This document shows positions 1 through 14,272 of a DNA stretch of 14,305 nucleotides, piece by piece. A model generated the notes under the pieces. It was not told the origin of the DNA. It worked only from the letters and a program-made list of their open reading frames with translations, and did no database searches. The stretch's first letter is position 1; every line of letters begins with the position of its first letter. Both the position numbers and the translations under genes were made by a program. The stretch spans positions 1-14,305 of the forward strand of contig DYHU01000068.1 of NCBI GenBank assembly GCA_020724025.1, in the 5' to 3' direction. This DNA comes from Syntrophorhabdus sp. (GTDB taxonomy: Bacteria; Desulfobacterota; BSN033; UBA1163).

Positions 1-855
1 TTGGAATCGGGAAAGTTTGTCCTCGTCGCTGAACTCCAGCCACCCAAAGGGATTGACCTCTCCGAGCTTTATGAAAATGCGGAACGACTGAAAGGCCGTC
101 TGGACGCCATCAATGTTCCGGATCTTCAGAATGCCATCATGAGGCTGGGATCTCTTTCCGTGGCCGCCCTCCTCAAGGGAAAGGGACTGGAAGTGATCTA
201 CAATCTCTCCTGTAGTGACCGAAACCGGTTGGCGCTCCAGTCCGAGCTCCTCAATGCCTCTGTCTTAGGTTTGAAGAATATCCTGATCCTTCAGGGAGAG
301 CATCCCTCCATCGGAGATCATTTGGAAGCTCAGCCCGTATTCGATCTTGATGTGATGGGCTTGCTCGGTGCGGTCAAACGCCTCCAGGAGGGTTATGATC
401 TCATGGGCAATGATCTTCAGGGAAAACCTCAATTTTTTGTTGGAGCTCAGGTCAATGCCGCGACCAAAGGCCATGTCCTCGATCTGGAGGTGATGGATAT
501 GGAGAAGAAGATCCGCCTGGGAGCCAACTTTTTCTTCACCGGCTCCATCTACGATCCGGGCCTTCTGGAGAACTTTGTCAGGAAAGCGGCCCATTTCAAA
601 GTGCCCATCATCGTGTCCATCACCTTGCTGAAGTCGGTCGGTATGGCCCGATATATCAATAAACATGTCGAAGGAGCTTCCATTCCGGACTCCATCATCG
701 ATCAATTAATGAAGGCCTCCGACAAACAGAAAGCGAGTATCGAAATTGCCAGGGATCTCATCAGAGCCATGAAACCGCTCTGCCAGGGCATCCAGATCAT
801 TCCCATTGGTTGGGAGAATCTGATCCCTGCCCTGCTCGATCAGGTCGGGCTATAA
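1..855 (+). CDS. metF: Methylenetetrahydrofolate reductase (MetF family), probably 5'-partial
   Basis: Predicted flavin-dependent reduction of 5,10-methylene-THF to 5-methyl-THF (or the reverse) in the methyl branch of the Wood-Ljungdahl pathway; cytosolic TIM barrel. What is seen: an N-terminal AELQPPKG motif (residues 10-17) matching the MetF 'E-x-x-PP-(R/K)-G' strand with the catalytic Glu at E11, an ILQGEHP segment (96-102) at the flavin-contact position, GANFFFTGSIYD (174-185) at the folate-binding strand, and a C-terminal IGWENLIPALL. The 284 residues nearly fill the usual 290-300. The reading frame opens with TTG at base 1, but related proteins have about 5-12 residues before 'ESGKF'. 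The TTG is therefore more likely an internal Leu codon, and the true start lies upstream of the window. The nearby hdr genes suggest a MetFV-Hdr type complex; a metV would be expected just upstream. Two family-conserved residues look substituted (see findings). Family call is firm; the electron donor is inferred. Confidence 0.85.
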   Translation: MESGKFVLVAELQPPKGIDLSELYENAERLKGRLDAINVPDLQNAIMRLGSLSVAALLKGKGLEVIYNLSCSDRNRLALQSELLNASVLGLKNILILQGEHPSIGDHLEAQPVFDLDVMGLLGAVKRLQEGYDLMGNDLQGKPQFFVGAQVNAATKGHVLDLEVMDMEKKIRLGANFFFTGSIYDPGLLENFVRKAAHFKVPIIVSITLLKSVGMARYINKHVEGASIPDSIIDQLMKASDKQKASIEIARDLIRAMKPLCQGIQIIPIGWENLIPALLDQVGL

Positions 856-3020: not shown

Positions 3021-3590
3021 ATGATGAATACAAACTCTTTTCTCTCAGAAGTGGTTCAGGCCAGTGGCGAAAAGCTGCAGGCCTGCTATCAGTGCCAGAA
3101 GTGTTCGGCAGGCTGCCCGGTCGCCTATGCCATGGATATCCTTCCCAATCAGGTGCTTCGTCACATTCAGTACGATCATAAGGAGAAGGTCCTCGGTTCG
3201 AAAACGATATGGATCTGCGCCTCCTGCTATGCCTGTAGTGTCCGATGCCCCAATAACATCGACATCGCCAGGATCATGGATACCCTGAGGGAGATCGCCG
3301 CTCGATCCGGGATCAAGCCGGGCGAGAAGGATGTCCCCATCTTTCATTCCGTCTTCCTCGACACGATCAAATCCAAAGGCCGCATTCACGAACTGAGCCT
3401 CATCCTCCAGTTTAAAACGAAAACCAGGGACTTCTTCAAAGATGCTTCCCTGGGATGGAAGATGTACCGTAAAGGTAAGATCAAACTCTTTCCCTCCAAG
3501 TTCGGAGGGGGAAAAGAGATCAAGGAGATCTTCAACACTTTTGAGAAAGGGAAACGAAGTAATGAAGCACCAAATCCCAAACACCAATAA
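3021..3590 (+). CDS. hdrC: Heterodisulfide reductase subunit C-like ferredoxin (HdrC)
   Basis: A 189-residue two-cluster ferredoxin that relays electrons from HdrA to HdrB in the cytosol. Two CX2CX2CX3CP motifs are visible, C22-C25-C28-C32-P and C66-C69-C72-C76-P, each expected to bind a [4Fe-4S] cluster. Length matches typical HdrC (about 180-190). The start is ATG 3021 or the adjacent ATG 3024, preceded by the purine-rich GGCGAGGTGA (3011-3020); the second ATG has the better spacing. The C-terminus is odd: the last six codons (PNPKHQ, 3570-3587) and the stop lie in the left end of a dispersed repeat (3571-3743), so the native end has probably been replaced. It is followed directly by hdrB, the usual partner. 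Confident as HdrC-like; the physiological acceptor is not determined by sequence. Confidence 0.92.
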   Translation: MMNTNSFLSEVVQASGEKLQACYQCQKCSAGCPVAYAMDILPNQVLRHIQYDHKEKVLGSKTIWICASCYACSVRCPNNIDIARIMDTLREIAARSGIKPGEKDVPIFHSVFLDTIKSKGRIHELSLILQFKTKTRDFFKDASLGWKMYRKGKIKLFPSKFGGGKEIKEIFNTFEKGKRSNEAPNPKHQ

Positions 3591-3743
3591 CCAAATAATG
3601 ACCAAAATTCCAATAACCAAAATTCTAATCCCCTCACCCCATCCCTCTCCCCTCAGGGGAGAGGGGCAGGGTGAGGGGCGTTTTGGTAATTGGGTATTAT
3701 TTGTCCCGCCTTGGCGGGATTGGAATTTGGTGATTGGGATTTA
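3571..3743. repeat. Intergenic palindromic repeat element, family A copy 1
   Basis: A mosaic repeat between hdrC and hdrB with imperfect inverted ends: the left end contains AAATCCCAAACACCAA (3572-3587), and the right end GGAATTTGGTGATTGGGATT is its near reverse complement (3722-3741). It shares two exact blocks with the copy at 4624-4880: 29 bp (3586-3614 = 4710-4738) and 35 bp (3703-3737 = 4838-4872). Within it are a long hairpin (3630-3678) and a short CCCGCC-tt-GGCGGG hairpin (3705-3718). The element overlaps the 3' end of hdrC and stops just before the hdrB ribosome site. Confidence 0.8.
3630..3678. repeat. Nested CCCTCACCC...GGGTGAGGG hairpin, copy 1
   Basis: The outer arms CCCCTCACCC (3630-3639) and GGGTGAGGGG (3669-3678) enclose a second palindrome, CCCTCTCCCCT / AGGGGAGAGGG (3643-3665). 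The same fold recurs at 4750-4797 and 10547-10592. No T-tract follows, so this is a repeat unit rather than a canonical intrinsic terminator; it could still stabilise or punctuate an operon mRNA. Confidence 0.8.
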
Positions 3744-3754
3744 AATCACTGAAG

Positions 3755-3760
3755 AAGGAG
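3755..3760 (+). promoter_or_regulatory. Shine-Dalgarno AAGGAG that fixes the hdrB start
   Basis: AAGGAG sits 6 bp before ATG 3767. It favours that ATG over the in-frame TTG at 3734, which lies inside repeat DNA and would add only repeat- and leader-encoded residues. Confidence 0.85.
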
Positions 3761-3766
3761 TTAAAA

Positions 3767-4618
3767 ATGATAGAGGTTTCTTATTATCCTGGATGCTCCC
3801 TCCATGGAACTGCGAGGGAATACGATGAATCGATTCGGGGCGTATCCGAGCTCCTCGGCCTCCAGCTCCATGAGTTAGAAGACTGGACCTGTTGCGGCGC
3901 CAGTTCGGCCCACTGCACGGACGAAGATCTGGCCATCGATCTTGCCGCCCGGAACCTTGCCATCGCAGAAAAGAGCCATCGGGAGTTACTCGTTCCCTGC
4001 GTGGCCTGCTACAGCCGTTTTAAAGTGGCGGAAAAAGAGGTGAAGGAACACTCCAGGAAAGTCCATTTCTCCTATCAGGGAAATGTTCCTGTTCGGTACT
4101 CCCTGGACTTCTTCTGTGACGAACCCATCCTCGAAGAGGTGAAGAAAAAGCGGATAAAACCTCTCAAGAACCTCAAGGTCGTCTGTTATTATGGGTGCCT
4201 GACAGTTCGGCCCCCCCAGTTGACTGGAATAAAACGATACGAGGACCCCAATCATATGGACCGGTTGATGGAAATACTGGGCGCTGACCCCATTCCCTGG
4301 TCCTATAAGGCCGACTGTTGCGGAGCCAGCCTGGTGATGACGCGAACCGATATCGTCAGGAGGTTGAGCGGAAAAATCCTCTCCATGGCAAAAGAGGCAG
4401 AGGCGGATTGTCTGGTCACTGGCTGCCCCATGTGTCACGCCAATCTCGATACCCGTCAGGACGAGCTGGGCAAGGAGGTCGGAGACCATTTCAACATCCC
4501 CATCCTCTATTTTTCGGAGCTAATGGGATTGGCCCTTGGCCATAAAGATGCGAGGAAATGGTTCGGCCACCACATCACCGACCCCATCAAGGTGTTGAAT
4601 GGAAAAGGATTGTTATAA
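3767..4618 (+). CDS. hdrB: Heterodisulfide reductase subunit B-like (HdrB), two CCG domains
   Basis: A 283-residue catalytic-type Hdr subunit. Two complete cysteine-rich CCG motifs are visible: C10-X31-C42C43G-X34-C78-X2-C81 and C144-X39-C184C185G-X34-C220-X2-C223. In methanogen HdrB such motifs bind the noncubane [4Fe-4S] clusters that reduce a disulfide. In bacterial Hdr-like complexes the real acceptor is often unknown and may be delivered through a partner such as MetF. The chosen start, MIEVSYYPGC, places the first CCG cysteine at position 10 as in relatives. No membrane segment is present. It follows hdrC after a 176-bp spacer made largely of repeat DNA, and no terminator separates them, so co-expression is likely. 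All ligand cysteines are intact, so the protein looks functional. Confidence 0.94.
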   Translation: MIEVSYYPGCSLHGTAREYDESIRGVSELLGLQLHELEDWTCCGASSAHCTDEDLAIDLAARNLAIAEKSHRELLVPCVACYSRFKVAEKEVKEHSRKVHFSYQGNVPVRYSLDFFCDEPILEEVKKKRIKPLKNLKVVCYYGCLTVRPPQLTGIKRYEDPNHMDRLMEILGADPIPWSYKADCCGASLVMTRTDIVRRLSGKILSMAKEAEADCLVTGCPMCHANLDTRQDELGKEVGDHFNIPILYFSELMGLALGHKDARKWFGHHITDPIKVLNGKGLL

Positions 4619-4797: not shown

Positions 4798-4939
4798 CGC
4801 TTAGGTGATTGGTTACTGGGTCATTGGTGATTATTTGGTCCCGCCTTGGCGGGATTGGAATTTGGTGATTGGAATTTAGCATATTGCGCTATATGAATAA
4901 GAACAAATCGCATGAGATAAATTGATCGAAAGGGATAAT

Positions 4940-7900
4940 ATGGTTGAAAAAGTTGGCGCTGTCATGGTCGTTGGTGGTGGAATCGCAGGAATCCAGGCCT
5001 CTCTCGACCTGGCCGAATCCGGCTACTATGTCTATCTCGTGGAATCCTCGCCTGCCATTGGCGGAGTGATGGCCCAGCTCGATAAGACCTTCCCGACCAA
5101 CGACTGCTCGATGTGTATCCTCTCTCCCAAATTGGTCGAGGCTGGCCGTCACCTCAACATCATGCCCCTCACCTACTCCGAGGTGATGGAGGTAAAGGGC
5201 GAACCCGGGAACTTCGAGGTGACGGTGAAAAAGAAATCCCGCTTCGTCGATCCCTCCAAATGCACGGGATGCGGGGAATGTCCTGAAGCCTGCCCGGTTC
5301 ATATCAAGAGTCAATTTGACGAAGCCCTTGTGGATCGGAGGGCCATCTACCGGCCTTATGCACAGGCCTTTCCCAATATCTTCACGATTGAAAAAGGAGA
5401 TCGGGCTCCCTGCGGTCTCACCTGCCCTTCCGGCATCAATGTTCAGGGTTATGTCGCCCTGATCGGGGCCGGAAAATATAAGGAAGCCCTCTCCCTGATC
5501 TGGGAAAACCTGCCTCTCCCGGGTGTATTGGGACGAATCTGTCCCCATCCCTGCGAGAAGGAATGCAATCGCAAGGATCTGGATGAACCCGTTGCCATCT
5601 GTGAACTGAAACGATTCGTTGCCGATCAGGTTCCCGTAGGGGCAATTCATGCCCGCCCCGGCCTATTAATAGGGCGGGCCGGGGAATTGCCCCTACAAGG
5701 GATTTCCGAACTGAAAAAAGAAGAGAAAGTGGCCATTGTCGGCTCCGGACCAGCAGGACTGACCGCTGCGGCCTATTTAGCCATGAAAGGATATCCGGTT
5801 ACGATCTTTGAGGCCCTGCCTGTCACAGGCGGAATGCTTTATACCGGCATCCCTTCCTATCGCCTTCCCAGAGATATTCTGGCGGAAGAGATCAAGACCA
5901 TTCAGTCTCTTGGTGTGGAGATCAAGACCAACTCCCCCGTCGGCCCCGACCTCACCATCGATGACCTTTTCCGGCAGGGATACCGGTCTGTCTTTCTCGG
6001 TGTGGGCGCCCATCAGGATCAAAAATTAAATATCCCTGGCGAGGACAACCCCAACGTCATCCCGGGCGTTGTCTTCTTAAGAAAAGCCAATCTCGGCCAG
6101 AAGATGGACGTGGGGAAAAGGGTGGCGGTGATCGGGGGAGGAAATGTGGCGATCGATGCGGCCTGCTCCGCCCTGCGTCTCGGTTCAGAGGAGGTCACGA
6201 TCATCTATCGCCGCTCACGTGAGGAGATGCCTGCCTACGAAGAGGATGTGAAAGAGGCGGATGAAGAGGGAATCCAATTCCATTTTCTCGCCGCTCCAAC
6301 GGAGATCATTCTTAAAGATCGAAAGATTTCCTCCCTCCGATGCATCCGTATGGAATTGGGGGAGCCTGATTCCTCCGGACGAAGACGGCCTATTCCGGTT
6401 CAGGGTTCGGACTTCTTCGTTGAAGCCGATACGATCATCCCTGCCATTGGCCAGACCCCGGATCTCTCTTTTCTCGCAGGCATGGGAATTGAAACAACGC
6501 CTCAGGGGACGATCAAGGCCGATCCCAAAACCCTCCAGACTTCTCGGAAGGAAGTCTTCGCCGGCGGCGATGCGGTCACCAGACCCTGGATTGCCATCGA
6601 GGCCGTGGCCGCCGGCAAAGGGGCGGCCATCTCGATTGACCGGTTTCTCAGGGGTAAAGACCTTCAGGAGGGAAGGGAAAAACCCGATATCGAAAAAGCC
6701 CGGTTCGAGGAGATTTACGGAGATCAACCCAAAGCCCCAAGGCTGCGTATGGAAAACATCCCCCTTGAGGAGAGAAGAAGAACCTTTACGGAAGTGAAGA
6801 AAGGCTTCACCGGAGAAGAGGCAAAGAAGGAGGCCCTCCGATGTCTCAACTGCGGGCTCTGTTCCGAATGTCTCCAGTGTGTGGCCATTTGCAAGGCAGG
6901 AGCCATCAACCATCAGATGAAGGAGGAGGTCGTCAATTTCAGTGTGGGTTCGATCATCCTGAGCCCTGGCTTTGATGAATATGATGCAAACCGGTTGGCC
7001 GCTTATGGATATGGCAGGCTTCCCAATGTGATCACCAGCATTCAATTCGAGCGGATCCTCAGCGCCTCAGGCCCCTTCCAGGGAAATCTTCTGAGACCTT
7101 CGGACCAAAAAGCGCCCAAGAAGGTCGCCTGGATCCAGTGCGCAGGCTCCAGGGATATGACTGAAAACGGCGGCAACGAATACTGCAGTTCGGTCTGCTG
7201 TATGTATGCCATCAAAGAGGCGGTGATCGCCAAAGAACACCATCACGAAGTCGAGCCCACGATTTTCTATATGGATATCCGCGCCCACGGAAAGGATTTC
7301 GACGCCTACTTTGAGAGGGCGAAGAAAGAATATGGCGTTCGGTTTATACGCTCGATGGTTTCTCGGGTGGCTGAAAGACCGAAGTCAAAAAATTTGATCA
7401 TCTCCTATGTGGATTCCGAAGGCAAACTGAAAGAGGAGGAGTTCGATCTCGTTGTCCTCTCCGTAGGGTTGACCCCCTCAAAGGGGGCAAAAGAACTTGC
7501 CTCCAAACTCGGATTGGACCTCGATACCTATGGGTTCTGCAAGACGGAGGAGTTCTCGCCCCTTCAGACCAGCCAGTCAGGAGTCTATGTCTGTGGCGCC
7601 TTTCAGGGCCCCAAGGATATCCCTGAGACCGTTGCTCAGGCGAGCGGCGCAGTGGCCGCCGCCTCAAGCCTTCTCTCCGATGTCCGCGGGACATTGACTA
7701 GGAAGAAGGACTATCCTGAAGAGATGGAGGTGAGCGGCCAGAAGCCCCGAATCGGCGTCTTCGTCTGCCATTGCGGAATCAACATCGGAGGCGTGGTCAA
7801 TGTTCCCGAAGTCAAGGACTATGCCCGGACGCTTGAGGGTGTGGTCTTTGTGGAAGAGAACCTATACACCTGTTCTCAGGATACCCAGGAGAAGATCAAG

Positions 7901-9430
7901 AAGGCGGTCGAGGAGAACCAACTGAACCGGGTGGTGGTAGCATCCTGTTCGCCGAGAACACACGAGCCCATGTTTCAAGAGACGATCCGGGAGACGGGTC
8001 TCAATAAGTATCTCTTCGAGATGACCAATATCCGGGATCAATGTTCCTGGGTCCATATGCACCAGCCCAGAGAGGCGACGGAAAAAGCAAAAGAACTTCT
8101 CCGAATGGCGGTGGCCAAATCCCGTCTCCTTCAACCCTTGAAAGAACCTCTGGTGGAAGTCATCAAAAAAGGTCTGGTCATCGGAGGCGGACTTTCCGGA
8201 ATGAAGGCCGCCCTGGGCCTGGCTCAGCAGGGATTCGACTGCGCCCTCGTGGAGAGGGAGACAGAACTGGGTGGAAATCTTCGGCATATCTATCACACCA
8301 TTGAGGGAAATGATCCACAGGGACTTCTTCGGAAGACGATCAAAGAGGTTCTCGAGAATCCTCGAATCCAGGTCTTTACAAAATCAGAACTGGAAAGCTT
8401 CAATGGCTATATCGGGAATTTTAAATCGGTCATTTCGACCAACGGGACCAAGAAAGAATACGAACATGGGGTAGTTGTTGTTGCGGTTGGGGCCAAAGAG
8501 AGTACGCCAAAGGAATACCTCTATGGCCAGGACCCGAGGGTGATCACACAGAAGGAACTGGAAGAGAAGATCGCCCTTCACGGAGAAGAGCTAAGCCGGA
8601 ACCGCCATATCGTCATGATTCAATGCGTGGGCTCCAGAATTCCGGAACATCCCAACTGCAGTCGGATCTGTTGCTCTGTCGCCATCAAGAATGCGCTGAA
8701 GATAAAGGAGAAGAATCCGGAAAAAAAAGTGACCGTCCTCTATCGTGACATCCGGACTTATGGATTGATGGAACAATATTATACCCGGGCAAGAGATCGG
8801 GGCGTCGAATTCGTCCAGTACGACCTTGACTCAAAACCCGACCTGAGCCTCGAGGGAGGAAACCTTCTGCTCAGAGTTAAAGATAAGATCCTCGGAGAAG
8901 AGGTGAGCCTGCGGCCTGATCTCGTGGTCCTGGCAAGCGCCATCATGCCATACGAGAATGAAGCCCTGGTAAAGATGCTCAAGGTGCCTTTGACCGCGGA
9001 CGGATTCTTCCTCGAAGCTCATATGAAGCTCCGGCCCGTCGATTTTGCCACGGATGGGATCTTCCTGGCCGGGTTGGCCCATTTTCCGAAGAGCATCAGC
9101 GAATCCATCTCTCAGGCCGATGCGGCCGTGGCCCGCGCCACCGCGGCCGTGGCCAAAGGATATGTGAGCGTGCTTCCGACCATCTCCGAGGTGGATCAGA
9201 CTCGCTGTGTGGGATGCGGCCTCTGTGAACTGCTCTGCCCCTTCAATGCGATTCGTGTTGTGGAGACCGAAAAGGGAAGTAAGGCCGAGACCATTGCCGC
9301 CTCGTGCAAAGGGTGTGGAGTCTGCAGCGCCAGTTGCCCGCAGAAGGCCGCGACGGTTTATCATTTCTCCGATCAACAGTTGATTGCCCAGATCGAGGCC
9401 CTTGGCCCCGCAAAGGAGAAAGCCGCCTGA
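4940..9430 (+). CDS. hdrA: Giant HdrA: two flavin modules with an inserted NfnB/GltD-like NAD(P)H module
   Basis: A 1496-residue flavin/Fe-S electron hub, cytosolic. Start: ATG 4940 has AAAGGG 5 bp upstream; the in-frame TTG at 4922 precedes that site. Module 1 (1-155): GGGIAG FAD fold near the N-terminus, HdrA signature C56-SM-C59, and ferredoxin motif C108-C111-C114-C118. Insert (about 158-650): GltD-type Fe-S cysteines C158/C162 and C201/C205/C209, FAD GSGPAG (268-273), NAD(P) GGGNVAID (399-406) followed by YRRSREEMPA, a segment typical of NADPH-using GltD/NfnB proteins, then a cysteine-rich stretch C635-C651. HdrA sequence then resumes (NFSVGSIILSPG; YCSSVCCMYAIKEA). Module 2: FVCHCGINIGG (C943, C945), CSPRTHEPMF, second FAD motif GGG (1082-1084), and C-terminal ferredoxins C1423-C1433 and C1456-C1466. 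Canonical HdrA is about 650 residues. The likely role is NAD(P)H input and flavin-based bifurcation with HdrBC. A repeat palindrome encodes residues 233-253. Confidence 0.9.
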   Translation: MVEKVGAVMVVGGGIAGIQASLDLAESGYYVYLVESSPAIGGVMAQLDKTFPTNDCSMCILSPKLVEAGRHLNIMPLTYSEVMEVKGEPGNFEVTVKKKSRFVDPSKCTGCGECPEACPVHIKSQFDEALVDRRAIYRPYAQAFPNIFTIEKGDRAPCGLTCPSGINVQGYVALIGAGKYKEALSLIWENLPLPGVLGRICPHPCEKECNRKDLDEPVAICELKRFVADQVPVGAIHARPGLLIGRAGELPLQGISELKKEEKVAIVGSGPAGLTAAAYLAMKGYPVTIFEALPVTGGMLYTGIPSYRLPRDILAEEIKTIQSLGVEIKTNSPVGPDLTIDDLFRQGYRSVFLGVGAHQDQKLNIPGEDNPNVIPGVVFLRKANLGQKMDVGKRVAVIGGGNVAIDAACSALRLGSEEVTIIYRRSREEMPAYEEDVKEADEEGIQFHFLAAPTEIILKDRKISSLRCIRMELGEPDSSGRRRPIPVQGSDFFVEADTIIPAIGQTPDLSFLAGMGIETTPQGTIKADPKTLQTSRKEVFAGGDAVTRPWIAIEAVAAGKGAAISIDRFLRGKDLQEGREKPDIEKARFEEIYGDQPKAPRLRMENIPLEERRRTFTEVKKGFTGEEAKKEALRCLNCGLCSECLQCVAICKAGAINHQMKEEVVNFSVGSIILSPGFDEYDANRLAAYGYGRLPNVITSIQFERILSASGPFQGNLLRPSDQKAPKKVAWIQCAGSRDMTENGGNEYCSSVCCMYAIKEAVIAKEHHHEVEPTIFYMDIRAHGKDFDAYFERAKKEYGVRFIRSMVSRVAERPKSKNLIISYVDSEGKLKEEEFDLVVLSVGLTPSKGAKELASKLGLDLDTYGFCKTEEFSPLQTSQSGVYVCGAFQGPKDIPETVAQASGAVAAASSLLSDVRGTLTRKKDYPEEMEVSGQKPRIGVFVCHCGINIGGVVNVPEVKDYARTLEGVVFVEENLYTCSQDTQEKIKKAVEENQLNRVVVASCSPRTHEPMFQETIRETGLNKYLFEMTNIRDQCSWVHMHQPREATEKAKELLRMAVAKSRLLQPLKEPLVEVIKKGLVIGGGLSGMKAALGLAQQGFDCALVERETELGGNLRHIYHTIEGNDPQGLLRKTIKEVLENPRIQVFTKSELESFNGYIGNFKSVISTNGTKKEYEHGVVVVAVGAKESTPKEYLYGQDPRVITQKELEEKIALHGEELSRNRHIVMIQCVGSRIPEHPNCSRICCSVAIKNALKIKEKNPEKKVTVLYRDIRTYGLMEQYYTRARDRGVEFVQYDLDSKPDLSLEGGNLLLRVKDKILGEEVSLRPDLVVLASAIMPYENEALVKMLKVPLTADGFFLEAHMKLRPVDFATDGIFLAGLAHFPKSISESISQADAAVARATAAVAKGYVSVLPTISEVDQTRCVGCGLCELLCPFNAIRVVETEKGSKAETIAASCKGCGVCSASCPQKAATVYHFSDQQLIAQIEALGPAKEKAA
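5636..5696. repeat. Palindromic repeat inserted in frame within hdrA-1
   Basis: A 61-bp palindrome with perfect 13-bp arms, GTAGGGGCAATTC (5636-5648) and GAATTGCCCCTAC (5684-5696). The GC-rich core can pair as GCCCGCCC/GGGCGGGC or CCCCGGCC/GGCCGGGG. It is translated as VGAIH...ELPLQ (residues 233-253) in the linker between the Fe-S helical part and the FAD fold of the GltD-like insert. The same arms occur as a 28-bp perfect palindrome in hdrA-2 (13700-13727), read in the same frame. Confidence 0.9.
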
Positions 9431-9478: not shown

Positions 9479-9611
9479 TGATGGTCTCGTAAAAAGTCGT
9501 CATTCCCGTGAAAACGGGAATCCAGGGAATTCTAACTATATGAAAATACTGGATTCCTGCTTGCGCAGGAATGACAAAAATCTCCTTTTCAGACTTTTTA
9601 CGAGATCATCA
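9479..9611. repeat. MITE-like palindromic element, copy 2 (inverted)
   Basis: A 133-bp element with 20-bp terminal inverted repeats (9479-9498 and 9592-9611, one mismatch; the inner 14 bp TCTCGTAAAAAGTC is perfect). It has two hairpins, ATTCCCGT-gaaa-ACGGGAAT (9502-9521) and ATTCCTGC-ttgc-GCAGGAAT (9553-9572). It runs in the opposite orientation to the copy at 859-1030 and lacks that copy's middle GAAA-looped hairpin. The ATTCCC-N8-GGGAAT core resembles the dRS3-type units known from Neisseria; this is similarity of form, not a demonstrated relationship. Confidence 0.88.
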
Positions 9612-9764: not shown

Positions 9765-9783
9765 CTTTAATATGGTGAACCCC

Positions 9784-10539
9784 ATGAGTTTTGAACCAAA
9801 AATCTTATCGTTCCTTTGTAACTGGTGCGCCTATGCGGGCGCGGACCTGGCAGGTATCTCCCGGTTTCAGTACCCGCCCAATACCCGTGTGATCCGGGTG
9901 ATGTGCTCCGGAAGGGTTGACCCCTCTTTCGTCCCCAGGGCTTTTCTTGCAGGGTATGATGGCGTCATGGTTCTGGGATGCCATCCCGGAGACTGCCATT
10001 ACCTGACCGGAAATTATCAGGCCGAGAAGAAAATTAGCCTCACCCGGAAATTGTTGAAGATGGCAGGAATCGGATCAGATAGACTTCTCCTCGACTGGGT
10101 CTCCGCCGGCGAGGGAGAGAGGTTTTCTCAGGTCATCCGCCAGTTCGTCGAGAAGATTCGCGGTTTGGGCCCCTTCCCTCTCGATCAGGGGATGAAAGAG
10201 AGACTTCAGGCAGTCAAAGCCTCTCTCGAGGGGGAAAAGATCCGCTGGATGGTGGGCAAGGGACCCGAACTCATGGAAAAAGAGAATGTCTATCACGAAC
10301 AACTCCCCAAAGAGAGATTGGATGCGGCGATCGAAGCTACCATCCGTGACGAGTTGATAAAAAATCGAATCGTCGCATTGGTGGAATCAAAACCCTTGCC
10401 TGCGGCAGAGATCAGTCAGACATTAGACCTTAAATTAAATGAGACGCTCTCCTACCTGGTCTCATTAGTCGGAGAAGGAAAGATTGGATTTGATCCGTCA
10501 GAGGAAGGAAAAATCCCGAAGTACATTCGAAACGTCTAA
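9784..10539 (+). CDS. mvhD: MvhD/FrhD-type [2Fe-2S] electron-transfer protein with C-terminal extension
   Basis: A 251-residue protein that links an electron donor (a hydrogenase in methanogens, often formate or NADH-linked enzymes in bacteria) to HdrA. The MvhD domain (about 1-135) has C12-NW-C15-AYAGAD, C41-SGRVDP and GC66HPGDC71H, the expected [2Fe-2S] ligands. The start at ATG 9784 (MSFEPKI) matches the usual N-terminus, with GGTGA 5 bp upstream; the in-frame ATG at 9772 has no ribosome site. Typical MvhD is about 140 residues. Here roughly 110 extra residues follow, including a basic/acidic helical stretch and LPAAEISQTLDLKLNETLSY, which could form a helix-turn-helix or winged-helix fold (inference). 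The gene follows hdrA-1 and pairs with it. No hydrogenase or formate dehydrogenase subunit is nearby, so the upstream donor is unknown. Confidence 0.9.
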   Translation: MSFEPKILSFLCNWCAYAGADLAGISRFQYPPNTRVIRVMCSGRVDPSFVPRAFLAGYDGVMVLGCHPGDCHYLTGNYQAEKKISLTRKLLKMAGIGSDRLLLDWVSAGEGERFSQVIRQFVEKIRGLGPFPLDQGMKERLQAVKASLEGEKIRWMVGKGPELMEKENVYHEQLPKERLDAAIEATIRDELIKNRIVALVESKPLPAAEISQTLDLKLNETLSYLVSLVGEGKIGFDPSEEGKIPKYIRNV

Positions 10540-10648: not shown

Positions 10649-13600
10649 ATGGAAGCAGCAAGAGATCTGAAAAAAGGTATAGACAAACAGCCCATCGGCG
10701 CGGTCATGGTTGTCGGAGGCGGCATCGGCGGGATGCAGGCTTCTCTCGATCTTGCCGATTCGGGATTCTATGTCTACCTGATTGACAACTCCCCGACCAT
10801 CGGCGGAGTGATGGCTCAGCTTGACAAAACCTTCCCCACCAATGACTGCTCCATGTGCATCATGTCCCCCAAACTGGTGGAGTGCGGAAGGCATCTTAAC
10901 ATCCGCGTCATCACCAATGCCGATGTAGAAGGCCTCGAAGGTGAACCCGGCCGCTTCAGTGTCACCCTGACGAGAAGGCCAAGATACATCCGCCCCGACC
11001 AGTGTACGGGGTGCGGTGAATGCGCCAAACACTGCCCGGTCACTGCCATCGATCTTTACAACGAAAAGTTGAGCAAGCGGGCTGCCATCTATATCAAATA
11101 TGCCCAGGCCATCCCGAAGGTCTATCTCATCGATCGCGAGCAATGTATCGGATGCGGACTCTGTGAAAGGGTCTGTCTTGCAAAAGCGGTCAATTACGAA
11201 GATGGCCAGATCGTCGAAAAGATCGATGTCGGATCAATTATCCTGGCGCCCGGCTATGAGGTCTTCGATGCCCATCTCAGGCCGGAATTCGGCTACGGAG
11301 TCTATCCCAATGTGTTGACGAGCATCGAATTCGAAAGGCTCTTGAGCGCCACCGGCCCGCACAGGGGCCATCTTCTGAGGCCCTCCGATGGAACGGTTCC
11401 GGAACGGATCGCCTTCATCCAGTGTGTCGGCTCACGGGATTCCAACTGCGGAAATGATTACTGCTCATCCATCTGCTGTATGTATGCCACCAAGGAAGCC
11501 ATCATCGCCAAAGAGCATGTCCACTTTGTTAAGCCCACCATCTTCTATATGGATGTGAGGGCCTATGGCAAAGGGTTTGATGCCTACTATGAGAGGGCGA
11601 AGTCCGAATACGGAGTTCGGTTCATCAAATGCATGGTCTCCAGGATCAGGGAGCAGTTTAAGACAAAGAATCTCCTTCTCACCTATCTGAACGAGGAAGG
11701 GAATCTTGTGGAAGAGGAGTTCGAACTGGTCGTCCTCTCTGTGGGCATGGTCCCTTCCAAAACGACCATGGCGATGGCGAAGAAGATGGGCGTGGAACTG
11801 GACCGATACGGATACTGTAAAACAATACCCTTCGAACCCACCTCTACCTCAAAGCCCGGCATCTATGTCTGCGGCGCCTTCGAGGCGCCCAAGGATATCC
11901 CTGAGACCGTCACTCAGGCAAGCGGCGCAGTGGCCGATGCCACCGGCATCCTCTCTCAGGCAAGGGGAACGATGGCCTTGAAGAAGGAATATCCTGTAGA
12001 GGCCGATGTGGCAAGCGAAGAACCCCGAATCGGCGTCTTCGTCTGCCACTGCGGAATCAATATCGGAGGCTTTGTCAATGTCCCCTCAGTCAAGGAGTAT
12101 GCCCGCACATTAAAGAATGTGGCTTATGTGGATGAAAACCTCTACACCTGCTCCACCGATACCCAGGAGAAGATCAAGAATGCCGTTAAGGAACACCATC
12201 TGAACCGTGTTATTGTTGCCTCCTGCTCTCCGAGGACGCATGAGCCCATGTTCAGGGAGACCATCCGTGATGCAGGGCTGAATAAATACCTTTTTGAGAT
12301 GGCCAATATTCGGGACCAGTGCTCATGGGTCCACATGTCTCAGAAGAATAAAGCCACAGAAAAGGCGAAAAACCTTGTCAGGATGGCGGTGGCCAATGCT
12401 AGGTTGATTCATCCGCTGGGCGAGATCGCCCTCTCCGTTACTCAGAAAGGATTAGTCATTGGAGGAGGTGTGTCAGGAATGACCGCCGCCCTCAAACTGG
12501 CCGAACAGGGATACGAAGTCTTCCTCATCGAAAAAGAGGCCCAATTGGGGGGGAATTTAAGGAACCTTCACTATACGCTTGAGGGTGAAGATGTCCAGAC
12601 CTTTCTCAAGAATCTGATCAGCCGGGTGACAGGTCATCCTTCCATTCAGGCAATCACCAATGCGCTGGTCGTCGACTTCAGTGGCTCCAAGGGCAATTTC
12701 TCAACAGGGATTATGGTCGCGCCTACGATGTATTACCGGAAGATCGAACACGGAGTCACCATCCTGGCCACTGGCGCCGATGAATGGAAACCAACCGAAT
12801 ATCTCTATGGTGAGGACCCCCGCATCCTCACCCAGTTGGAACTGGAAAACCGAATTGCCAATCAGCCGGACGGAGTGGCTCAAGCCAATCAGATCGTCAT
12901 GATCCAGTGTGTGGGATCAAGAAATGAAGAAAGGCCTTATTGCAGCCGGACCTGTTGCGCCACCGCCATTAAAAATAGTCTCAAGATAAAGGAACTGAAT
13001 CCCGACGCTAAAATCACGATCCTCTACCGGGATATGCGGACCTACGGTCTGATGGAATCGTACTATGCAAAAGCCAGAGACGAAGGAATTCTGTTCATCA
13101 GATATGAGCCTGAGAAAAAACCAGCAGTCAGCAAAAATGGAAAGGGACTCTCCGTCTCTATTGTTGATCCAATCCTGAAGGAGGAGATGGAGATAACGCC
13201 CGATCTTTTGGTCCTTTCTTCGGCTACCATTGCGAGGGAGAATGAGGAATTGGCGACCATGCTGAAGGTCCCCCGAACAGCAGAGGGTTTCTTCCTGGAA
13301 GCGCATATGAAACTGAGACCGGTCGATTTTGCAACGGATGGCCTCTATCTGGCTGGCTCAGGACATGGTCCTAAATTGATCAGCGAAAGCATCTCCCAGG
13401 CAAGCGCAACAGTCTCCCGGGCTTGCACCATTCTTTCAAAGGAGAAAATCTTGGTCGGAGGCGTCGTGGCCATTGTGGAAGGGGAGCGGTGTGCGGCCTG
13501 TTTGACCTGTGTGAGGCTCTGTCCGTACAATGTCCCGGTGATCAATGCCAAGGGGGAGGCGGAGATTGATCTGGCCAAGTGCAAGGGGTGCGGCAGTTGT

Positions 13601-13747
13601 GTGGCCGAGTGTCCGGCCAGGGCCATAGAGCTGATGCACTTTCGGGATGGGCAATTGTGGGCGAAGAGCCAGGCCTTGGTTTTCAGTTCGGAGTTCGGAG
13701 TAGGGGCAATTCATGAATTGCCCCTACAGGGTTCGGAGAATTCATAA
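10649..13747 (+). CDS. hdrA: Second HdrA paralogue, two flavin modules, no NAD(P)H insert
   Basis: A 1032-residue HdrA homologue, cytosolic. Module 1: FAD motif GGGIGG (23-28), CSMCIMSPKLVE signature, ferredoxin motifs C119-C122-C125-C129 and C166-C169-C172-C176, and YCSSICCMYATKEA. Module 2: FVCHCGINIGG (C466, C468), CSPRTHEPMF, a second FAD motif GGGVSG (605-610), QCVGSR...YCSRTCC, then C-terminal ferredoxins C948-C951-C954-C958 and C978-C981-C984-C988. It aligns by eye with hdrA-1 over its whole length except the roughly 500-residue GltD-like insert, so the two are paralogues. ATG 10649 is the first usable start, with GGAG at 10634-10637. Family members end near 'MHFxDGQL'; here the last residues (about VFSSEF onward) are repeat-encoded, including VGAIHELPLQG (1018-1028). 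It lies upstream of the Sec-type mvhD and may serve a different donor from hdrA-1. Confidence 0.92.
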   Translation: MEAARDLKKGIDKQPIGAVMVVGGGIGGMQASLDLADSGFYVYLIDNSPTIGGVMAQLDKTFPTNDCSMCIMSPKLVECGRHLNIRVITNADVEGLEGEPGRFSVTLTRRPRYIRPDQCTGCGECAKHCPVTAIDLYNEKLSKRAAIYIKYAQAIPKVYLIDREQCIGCGLCERVCLAKAVNYEDGQIVEKIDVGSIILAPGYEVFDAHLRPEFGYGVYPNVLTSIEFERLLSATGPHRGHLLRPSDGTVPERIAFIQCVGSRDSNCGNDYCSSICCMYATKEAIIAKEHVHFVKPTIFYMDVRAYGKGFDAYYERAKSEYGVRFIKCMVSRIREQFKTKNLLLTYLNEEGNLVEEEFELVVLSVGMVPSKTTMAMAKKMGVELDRYGYCKTIPFEPTSTSKPGIYVCGAFEAPKDIPETVTQASGAVADATGILSQARGTMALKKEYPVEADVASEEPRIGVFVCHCGINIGGFVNVPSVKEYARTLKNVAYVDENLYTCSTDTQEKIKNAVKEHHLNRVIVASCSPRTHEPMFRETIRDAGLNKYLFEMANIRDQCSWVHMSQKNKATEKAKNLVRMAVANARLIHPLGEIALSVTQKGLVIGGGVSGMTAALKLAEQGYEVFLIEKEAQLGGNLRNLHYTLEGEDVQTFLKNLISRVTGHPSIQAITNALVVDFSGSKGNFSTGIMVAPTMYYRKIEHGVTILATGADEWKPTEYLYGEDPRILTQLELENRIANQPDGVAQANQIVMIQCVGSRNEERPYCSRTCCATAIKNSLKIKELNPDAKITILYRDMRTYGLMESYYAKARDEGILFIRYEPEKKPAVSKNGKGLSVSIVDPILKEEMEITPDLLVLSSATIARENEELATMLKVPRTAEGFFLEAHMKLRPVDFATDGLYLAGSGHGPKLISESISQASATVSRACTILSKEKILVGGVVAIVEGERCAACLTCVRLCPYNVPVINAKGEAEIDLAKCKGCGSCVAECPARAIELMHFRDGQLWAKSQALVFSSEFGVGAIHELPLQGSENS

Positions 13748-13770: not shown

Positions 13771-13797
13771 TAAATTACTCCGAACTAATCAATAGAT

Positions 13798-13802
13798 AGG
13801 AG
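13798..13802 (+). promoter_or_regulatory. Shine-Dalgarno AGGAG for the Sec-type mvhD
   Basis: AGGAG (followed by AGG) lies 5 bp before ATG 13808. This ATG is in frame with both the TGA at 13898 and the MvhD reading frame beyond it, so it supports a start upstream of the TGA rather than at the internal ATG 13931. Confidence 0.8.
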
Positions 13803-13807
13803 AGGCA

Positions 13808-14272
13808 ATGGAGGCAGCGCAGGAGCCACGAGTCACCAGTCACGAATCACCAGTCACGCAGTTTGAGCCTGAGATCTTGGCATATTGTTGTGAGCATTGA
13901 GCTTACAGTGCGGCGGACCTGGCAGGTTCGATGAGGCTTTCCTATCCGACAAATGTGAAGATCGTGAAGGTGCCCTGTACGGGCCGGGTGGATATTCTAT
14001 TGATCCTTAAAGCCTTTGAATCAGGGGTGGACGGGGTTTACCTGGCGGGGTGTTTGGAGGGGGAGTGTCATTTCTTGAGGGGGAACCTCAGGGCCAAAAA
14101 GAGGGTCCAGTATGTAAAGACACTATTGGATGAGGTAGGATTGGGTTCGGGTCGAGTGGAGATGTATAATATGAGTTCAGCCCAGGGTCAGAGATTTGCG
14201 GAGGTGGCCCGTGAGATGACAAAGAATATCCGGGCGTTGGGGCCGAGTCCGGTGAAGAAGTCTAAAAGTTAG
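13808..14272 (+). CDS. mvhD: Selenocysteine-containing MvhD/FrhD-type [2Fe-2S] protein (TGA 13898-13900 = Sec31)
   Basis: A 154-residue MvhD homologue if the in-frame TGA is read as selenocysteine. Residues 19-40 match the MvhD N-terminus: FEPEILAYC28-EH-U31-AYSAADLAG, against C12-NW-C15-AYAGADLAG in the other MvhD of this window. The TGA thus replaces exactly the second cysteine of CxxC. The frame then continues with C57-TGRVD and GC82LEGEC87H to the TAG at 14272; all other ligands are present. ATG 13808 has a good ribosome site, whereas the open frame from ATG 13931 would lack the first ligand pair. A candidate SECIS hairpin starts 11 bases after the TGA. MvhD-family selenoproteins are established (VhuD in methanogens; FrhD-like in some deltaproteobacteria). 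Residues 7-17 come from a tandem repeat. Alternatives are a point-mutated pseudogene or a sequencing error. It probably delivers electrons to hdrA-2. Confidence 0.82.
13829..13856 (+). repeat. 14-bp tandem duplication in the mvhD-2 5' coding region
   Basis: CGAGTCACCAGTCA (13829-13842) is followed by CGAATCACCAGTCA (13843-13856), one mismatch. It encodes part of the N-terminal tail before the conserved QFEPEI start of the MvhD domain, a region other MvhD proteins lack. Confidence 0.8.
13911..13933 (+). promoter_or_regulatory. Candidate bacterial SECIS hairpin downstream of the Sec codon
   Basis: CGGCGGACC (13911-13919) pairs with GGTTCGATG (13925-13933) around the loop UGGCA. This gives eight pairs (two of them G-U) and one G-A mismatch. 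The stem begins 11 bases after the TGA and the loop lies about 20 bases after it, with G in the first two loop positions. That spacing and loop composition agree with known bacterial SECIS elements such as that of fdhF. The fold was drawn by hand; no energy was calculated. Confidence 0.6.

Follow-up and report, generated by a model that had tools for sequence, protein, structure and literature searches.

The window, as we call the whole stretch of DNA analyzed here (14,305 nt of contig DYHU01000068.1 from the Syntrophorhabdus sp. assembly GCA_020724025.1), carries a series of genes for Hdr-, MvhD-, and MetF-like proteins. The last of these genes is predicted to encode a selenocysteine (Sec)-containing MvhD protein and is here referred to as mvhD-Sec. 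The genes and features of the window are as follows:

1 to 855, forward strand: MetF-like methylenetetrahydrofolate reductase domain, which may begin before the window (PF02219, E value of 2.1e-24)
3021 to 3590, forward strand: HdrC-like iron-sulfur protein (profile matches)
3734 to 4618, forward strand: HdrB-like protein with two CCG stretches (profile matches)
4922 to 9430, forward strand: HdrA-like protein fused to a GltD-like pyridine-nucleotide oxidoreductase module (HdrL-like; NF040770, 1010.8 bits, below the cutoff of 1100; NF009410, 556.3 bits, over the cutoff of 516)
9772 to 10539, forward strand: second MvhD/FlpD protein, with CNWC (Cys) and a C-terminal extension (sequence reading and profile match)
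10649 to 13747, forward strand: HdrA-like flavoprotein directly upstream of mvhD-Sec, with Cys at PTNDCSMC, the presumed partner (NF040770, 998.7 bits, below the cutoff of 1100)
13797 to 13805, forward strand: Shine-Dalgarno-like stretch TAGGAGAGG, 5' of the ATG at 13808-13810 (direct sequence reading)
13808 to 14272, forward strand: predicted mvhD/flpD selenoprotein gene, 154 amino acids if the TGA is decoded as Sec31 (frame, profile match, and orthologues)
13889 to 13900, forward strand: CxxU motif C28 E29 H30 U31, with the TGA at 13898-13900 (frame reading and the column of 81 sequences)
13915 to 13929, forward strand: putative bacterial SECIS core, with stem 13915-13920/13924-13929 and GGC loop 13921-13923 (6-bp stem, 20 nt past the UGA, and conservation in TGA genes)
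13931 to 13933, forward strand: internal ATG (Met42), the start in automatic annotation of a 113-amino-acid truncated product (starts of database homologues)

The window ends 33 nt past mvhD-Sec. The HdrA-like and MvhD genes form a tandem of two pairs of paralogues (4922-9430, 9772-10539, 10649-13747, and 13808-14272), and with one HdrA fused to GltD and one MvhD predicted to contain Sec, a division of labor within the operon is possible. Several repeats were also observed. Within the gene for the HdrA/GltD fusion, positions 5636-5696 hold an in-frame palindromic repeat (GTAGGGGCAATTCATG ... GAATTGCCCCTAC) encoding the peptide VGAIHARPGLLIGRAGELPLQG; the 4 homologues displayed either lack this peptide or have another sequence there. 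The same repeat recurs as a perfect palindrome at positions 13700-13727, in the 3'-terminal part of the second hdrA gene, and there encodes part of the C terminus. Furthermore, dispersed inverted repeats are present in the intergenic regions 859-1030 and 9479-9611, with 49 nt matching at 94% (982-1030 versus 9479-9527) and further arms around them, and these are perhaps a mobile palindromic element.

The reading frame that opens at ATG 13808 contains a single TGA (13898-13900, residue 31) and is otherwise open to the TAG at 14270-14272; direct reading confirmed the initial annotation on this point, including its good ribosome site and its end at 14272. The 154-amino-acid product covers positions 1 to 123 of the 123 positions of the FlpD/MvhD delta subunit profile PF02662 (E value of 3.3e-48) and scores 163.2 bits against a curated cutoff of 22.3. 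With the VhuD exception family NF045873 it scores 162.7 bits, below the curated cutoff of 215, and we therefore regard it as MvhD-like rather than as VhuD proper. As had been noticed at the outset, the TGA falls on the second Cys of a CxxC motif, with C28-E-H-U31 standing opposite the CNWC of the MvhD encoded at 9772-10539, and the remaining Cys residues were correctly described as intact, since C57, C82, and C87 are all present.

Relatives were collected by a protein scan of genome contigs, and the best 80 of 138 loci were kept, which together with the window gave 81 sequences. An alignment around residue 31, proposed with the initial annotation as a check, revealed that Cys and Sec exchange at this column: among the best 80 of 138 loci and the window, TGA was found in 55 sequences (the window and 54 of the 80 loci), TGC in 16, and TGT in 10, and the residue 31 site is the sole stop in the matched stretches of the 54 TGA loci. 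The hallmark of bacterial selenoproteins, an in-frame TGA aligned with a Cys of homologues, is seen here as 55 TGA codons versus 26 TGC or TGT codons, and in these alignments the recurrence of TGA at the column is far beyond chance. A protein tree was built without the residue 31 column and has few columns relative to its rows; on this tree, the distribution of Sec and Cys takes a minimum of 4 changes (bootstrap, 3 to 4), 2 of which are forced by well-supported branches alone. The window falls in a well-supported set of 18 sequences, 18 of which have TGA, as do all of its five nearest rows. The TGA loci are found in Thermodesulfobacteriota, including Syntrophaceae, Syntrophorhabdaceae, and Desulfobacteraceae, with further loci in Acidobacteriota, in one record titled Pseudomonadota, and in records titled only Deltaproteobacteria or bacterium.

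Downstream of the UGA, codons +5 to +9, which encode Ala Asp Leu Ala Gly, are near-frozen at their synonymous sites in the 55 TGA genes: GCG is used in 52, GAC in 55, CTG in 55, GCA in 54, and GGT in 54 of them, versus 7, 11, 15, 4, and 7 of the 26 Cys genes, respectively (Fisher P values of 6e-7 to 9e-15, uncorrected for kinship). Several synonyms are used at codons +1 to +4 and +13 to +16 of the TGA genes and, among the 26 Cys genes, at codons +5 to +9 themselves. The exact 15-mer of these five codons is present in 50/55 TGA genes, the window among them, and in 0/26 Cys genes. Since no peptide pattern used for selecting the loci overlaps codons +5 to +9, their freezing is not a selection effect. 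For each of the six pairs of the putative SECIS stem, 54 or 55 of the 55 TGA genes have pairing bases, compared with 10, 17, 7, 26, 26, and 8 of the 26 Cys genes. When the motif TGN-N12-GCGGACCTGGCAGGTT was searched for in the 51 whole genomes with TGA loci, 60 matches were obtained in 49 of the 51 genomes, all 60 of them with TGA, and the reversed pattern used as a control gave no match in the 51 genomes.

The stem-loop was also checked by hand against the constraints of the bSECIS model as printed in the legend of Fig. 2 of PMC13188914 (loop of 3 to 9 nt, stem of 4 to 16 bp, G in the first two loop positions, distance of 16 to 37 nt from the UGA, and minimum free energy [MFE] of ≤-7.5). With a 3-nt GGC loop, a 6-bp stem, a spacing of 20 nt, and an MFE of -11.6 kcal/mol for 13898-13940, it lies within these constraints and also follows the preferred N1-G-[G/U]-N-N2 pattern with a U-A closing pair. 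A putative bacterial SECIS, for which scoring of the region had been suggested, is thus consistent with the printed model, and the stem-loop is conserved in TGA genes only. As the SECIS sequence is frozen, no covariation supporting the stem was detected in the 55 TGA genes (alifold covariation term of -0.04), and synonymous-site freezing was used as evidence instead. Fold energies were ordinary in four of the five stretches tried (z scores of -0.43 to 0.07), while the stretch 13895-13935 had a z score of -2.30 but folds into a different hairpin. The stretch 13895-13950 does so too, so that the SECIS stem is part of the minimum-energy fold of only three of the five stretches, and folding energy alone was rejected as evidence for a SECIS. 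No Rfam family was found over the SECIS region, and the two weak Rfam matches obtained stayed far below their gathering scores. The case for a SECIS rests on the frozen synonymous sites.

The sel genes that a Sec protein calls for were looked for in near relatives, and selA, selB, selD, and tRNA-Sec all occur there. Among 16 near-relative genomes, selA is over the cutoff in 16 and selD in 15, and all 15 of these selD genes themselves contain an in-frame TGA. A clear tRNA-Sec (68.7 to 82.9 bits) is present in 13 of the 16 genomes, with the anticodon UCA read in 5 of the 13; a tally of 14 of 16 was rejected because the match in genome G003 is a tRNA-Ser. Of the 51 genomes that have a TGA mvhD, 46 have selB over the cutoff, versus 21 of the 25 that have a Cys mvhD. 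Being nearly as frequent with Cys as with TGA, it indicates that the machinery permits Sec but does not discriminate, and selB presence was rejected as a separator of the two groups of genomes. Cys/Sec exchange, the SECIS-like stem-loop, and the sel machinery in near relatives support the reading of the product as a Sec-containing redox protein, in which Sec would be inserted at residue 31.

selC*-like tRNAs were observed as well, at loci L085 (13298-13389), L086 (2760-2851), L087, and L129 to L133. Their anticodon is GCA in genomes G004, G010, and G016, with a second selB gene adjoining in G004 and G010, and UCA in genomes G040, G044, G047, G053, and G062. It is conceivable that the UGA is decoded as Cys by a SelB*-type factor together with a tRNA-Sec-shaped tRNA-Cys (selC*) with an opal anticodon, a type reviewed in PMC7609411. 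The UCA anticodon in five of the eight genomes searched fits this reading, as does a selB-like gene at most 50 nt from the tRNA in four of these genomes and about 1.4 kb away in G044; G053 has both a UCA selC*-like tRNA and a TGA mvhD (L056), so its UGA could be Sec or Cys. However, the three genomes nearer the window in which such a tRNA was read (G004, G010, and G016) have the anticodon GCA and not UCA, each of them also has an ordinary tRNA-Sec (UCA), and a clear tRNA-Sec is found in the 13 of 16 near relatives, which makes decoding as Cys improbable.

Another possibility is that the TGA is a true stop, leaving either a pseudogene or only a 113-amino-acid protein from ATG 13931. Gene callers annotate it in this way, as the initial annotation had foreseen: 36 of the best 120 of 6854 database homologues start at an internal Met, MRL[SNH]YP, which corresponds to residue 42. 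However, the truncated form is without the CxxC/U motif, and the residues ahead of the TGA show conservation: all 55 TGA genes have F (-12), P (-10), A (-6), and CC (-4/-3). Also speaking against a true stop, which we consider very improbable, are the recurrence of this TGA in 54 relatives (among the best 80 of 138), whose matched stretches contain no further stop codon, and the downstream stem, whose conservation is confined to genes with the TGA. A sequencing or assembly error at 13898-13900, where the codon would really be TGC or TGT, requires just a single-base change but is hardly credible, as the window has the exact 15-mer of 50/55 TGA and 0/26 Cys genes and its five nearest tree rows all have TGA.

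In the relatives, all 49 TGA loci with sufficient flank have metV directly downstream of mvhD (5 more have flanks shorter than 1500 bases), as do 9 of the 24 Cys loci that could be assessed (2 were too short). On the other side, an HdrA gene lies directly upstream of mvhD in 48 of the 51 TGA loci long enough to judge (absent in 3, with 3 more too short) and in 16 of 26 Cys loci. At locus L001, for instance, mvhD is followed by metV (PF12225) and then metF. The window itself contains hdrC-, hdrB-, and hdrA-like genes and a MetF domain, and metV is known from the relatives only; given metV downstream in 49/49 testable TGA relatives, the window gene probably encodes the MvhD of a MetVF-HdrCBA-MvhD methylene-tetrahydrofolate (THF) reductase. 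In a pull-down in Sporomusa ovata, MvhD binds HdrA, HdrB, and MetF (PMC9430772). Based on this and on gene order, Sec-MvhD is most likely the [2Fe-2S] linker of this reductase.

A restriction of Sec-MvhD to metV loci was considered and rejected. In 20 of the 51 genomes, an in-frame TGA is present in 61 of 139 FlpD matches, 29 of which lie beside metV, 29 elsewhere, and 3 at contig ends; contig ends were recognized on one strand only, and some of the matches placed elsewhere may be contig ends. In the same 20 genomes, 10 of the 39 FlpD matches beside metV have no TGA. The adjacency count used 58 of 69 metV-family rows; the 11 dropped rows were low ranked, mostly long fused frames, and none of them lies downstream of a FlpD match on the same contig. 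For the SECIS cassette, 30 of the 60 motif matches were fetched, and 28 of the 30 loci are linked to metV, with the other two at contig ends. Strict metV linkage is a property of the SECIS cassette in the loci examined and not of Sec-MvhD at large. It seems reasonably likely that there is a distinct Sec-MvhD lineage, with the near-invariant SECIS cassette GCGGACCTGGCAGGT, that is devoted specifically to the Hdr-type methylene-THF reductase across Syntrophales-like bacteria, Desulfobacterales, and Acidobacteriota.

Sec in MvhD relatives of methanogens and some deltaproteobacteria, mentioned in the initial annotation, is indeed in print. Table 1 of PMC13188914 lists PF02662 (MvhD/VhuD/FrhD delta subunit) with CxxU, so that the window protein shares both family and motif with published proteins; Desulfobacterium autotrophicum has four Sec mvhD genes (mvhD1, 2, 3, and 5; PMC2702500) and Desulfococcus multivorans one (dmul_C28840/50; PMC5109826), and methyl-viologen-reducing hydrogenase is named among deltaproteobacterial selenoproteins (PMC8318568). 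The description of a "hidden selenoprotein" thus stood for the annotation but not for the family, whose Sec form is already published (PMC13188914, PMC2702500, PMC5109826). By description rather than by sequence, the genes of D. autotrophicum and D. multivorans resemble that of the window, with an in-frame UGA and hdrA nearby. What these three papers say of the genes mentions no metV neighbor, whereas the window Sec-MvhD belongs to the metV-adjoining group. According to PMC13188914, some archaeal FrhD/VhuD proteins have multiple Sec residues, and archaeal SECIS elements are mostly located in the 3' UTR, unlike the putative SECIS of the window, which lies in the coding region. In the solved chain 9sfi_K of an archaeal-type VhuD, a nonstandard residue X aligns with U31, and a second X stands at the position of C82, where the window has Cys; X is presumably Sec. 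Eight TGA matches of the MvhD family that were read revealed two Sec sites: 3 have CxxU alone, 4 have GU..GDC/GEC, the site of C82 in the window protein, and 1 has both. Paralogues with Sec at the second site, GU..GDC/GEC, occur in the same genomes (L136, L137, L139, and L138), and L138 (13317-13685 of G031:C23) has both sites in one MvhD.

The HdrCBA-MvhD-MetVF systems of Moorella thermoacetica and Sporomusa ovata (PMC9430772) have the same gene set as the relatives, with mvhD directly before metV, but differ from the window, which has two hdrA-like and two mvhD genes. The main text of PMC9430772 contains no mention of selenocysteine or selenium. No title or abstract found in our searches of the open-access literature reports Sec in a metV-linked MvhD. 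Sec-MvhD is already published for Deltaproteobacteria and methanogens, and the window gene is a clear further example; the metV context appears to be new.

Taken together, it is very likely that 13808-14272 is a selenoprotein gene whose UGA is recoded via SelB and the stem-loop and whose MvhD product most likely links HdrCBA to MetVF. As we envisage it, SelB with Sec-tRNA(Sec) would bind the stem-loop 13915-13929, and the UGA at 13898-13900 would be recoded as Sec31 to give the 154-amino-acid MvhD (FlpD) with C28-x-x-U31. This small [2Fe-2S] electron carrier would dock on HdrA and link the flavin-based, probably bifurcating, HdrCBA module to the MetVF methylene-THF reductase, in the setting of the Wood-Ljungdahl pathway or its reverse. 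The Hdr-MetVF link is drawn from gene order, namely, a metF domain, hdrC, hdrB, hdrA/gltD, mvhD, hdrA, and mvhD-Sec in the window, with metV and metF next in the relatives. Sec31 may act as a cluster ligand or a redox-tuning residue, with a possible influence on potential or rate, and bifurcation and a physical complex are presumed.

In summary, this work corrects a wrong annotation in many deposited proteins, which lack the N-terminal region bearing the redox motif, and it provides a simple sequence tag for true Sec-mvhD genes. If the dedicated lineage is real, selenium would be a component of the electron input of methylene-THF reductase in these anaerobes, and the cassette GCGGACCTGGCAGGT would serve as a search tag for misannotated genes. 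If the metV linkage is functional, selenocysteine would stand at the electron entry of the Hdr-type methylene-THF reductase, which stands for an energy-coupling step in the Wood-Ljungdahl pathway. Acetate oxidation or acetogenesis would then be selenium dependent unless a Cys copy takes over, and the second (Cys) MvhD of the operon might be such a substitute for Sec-MvhD.
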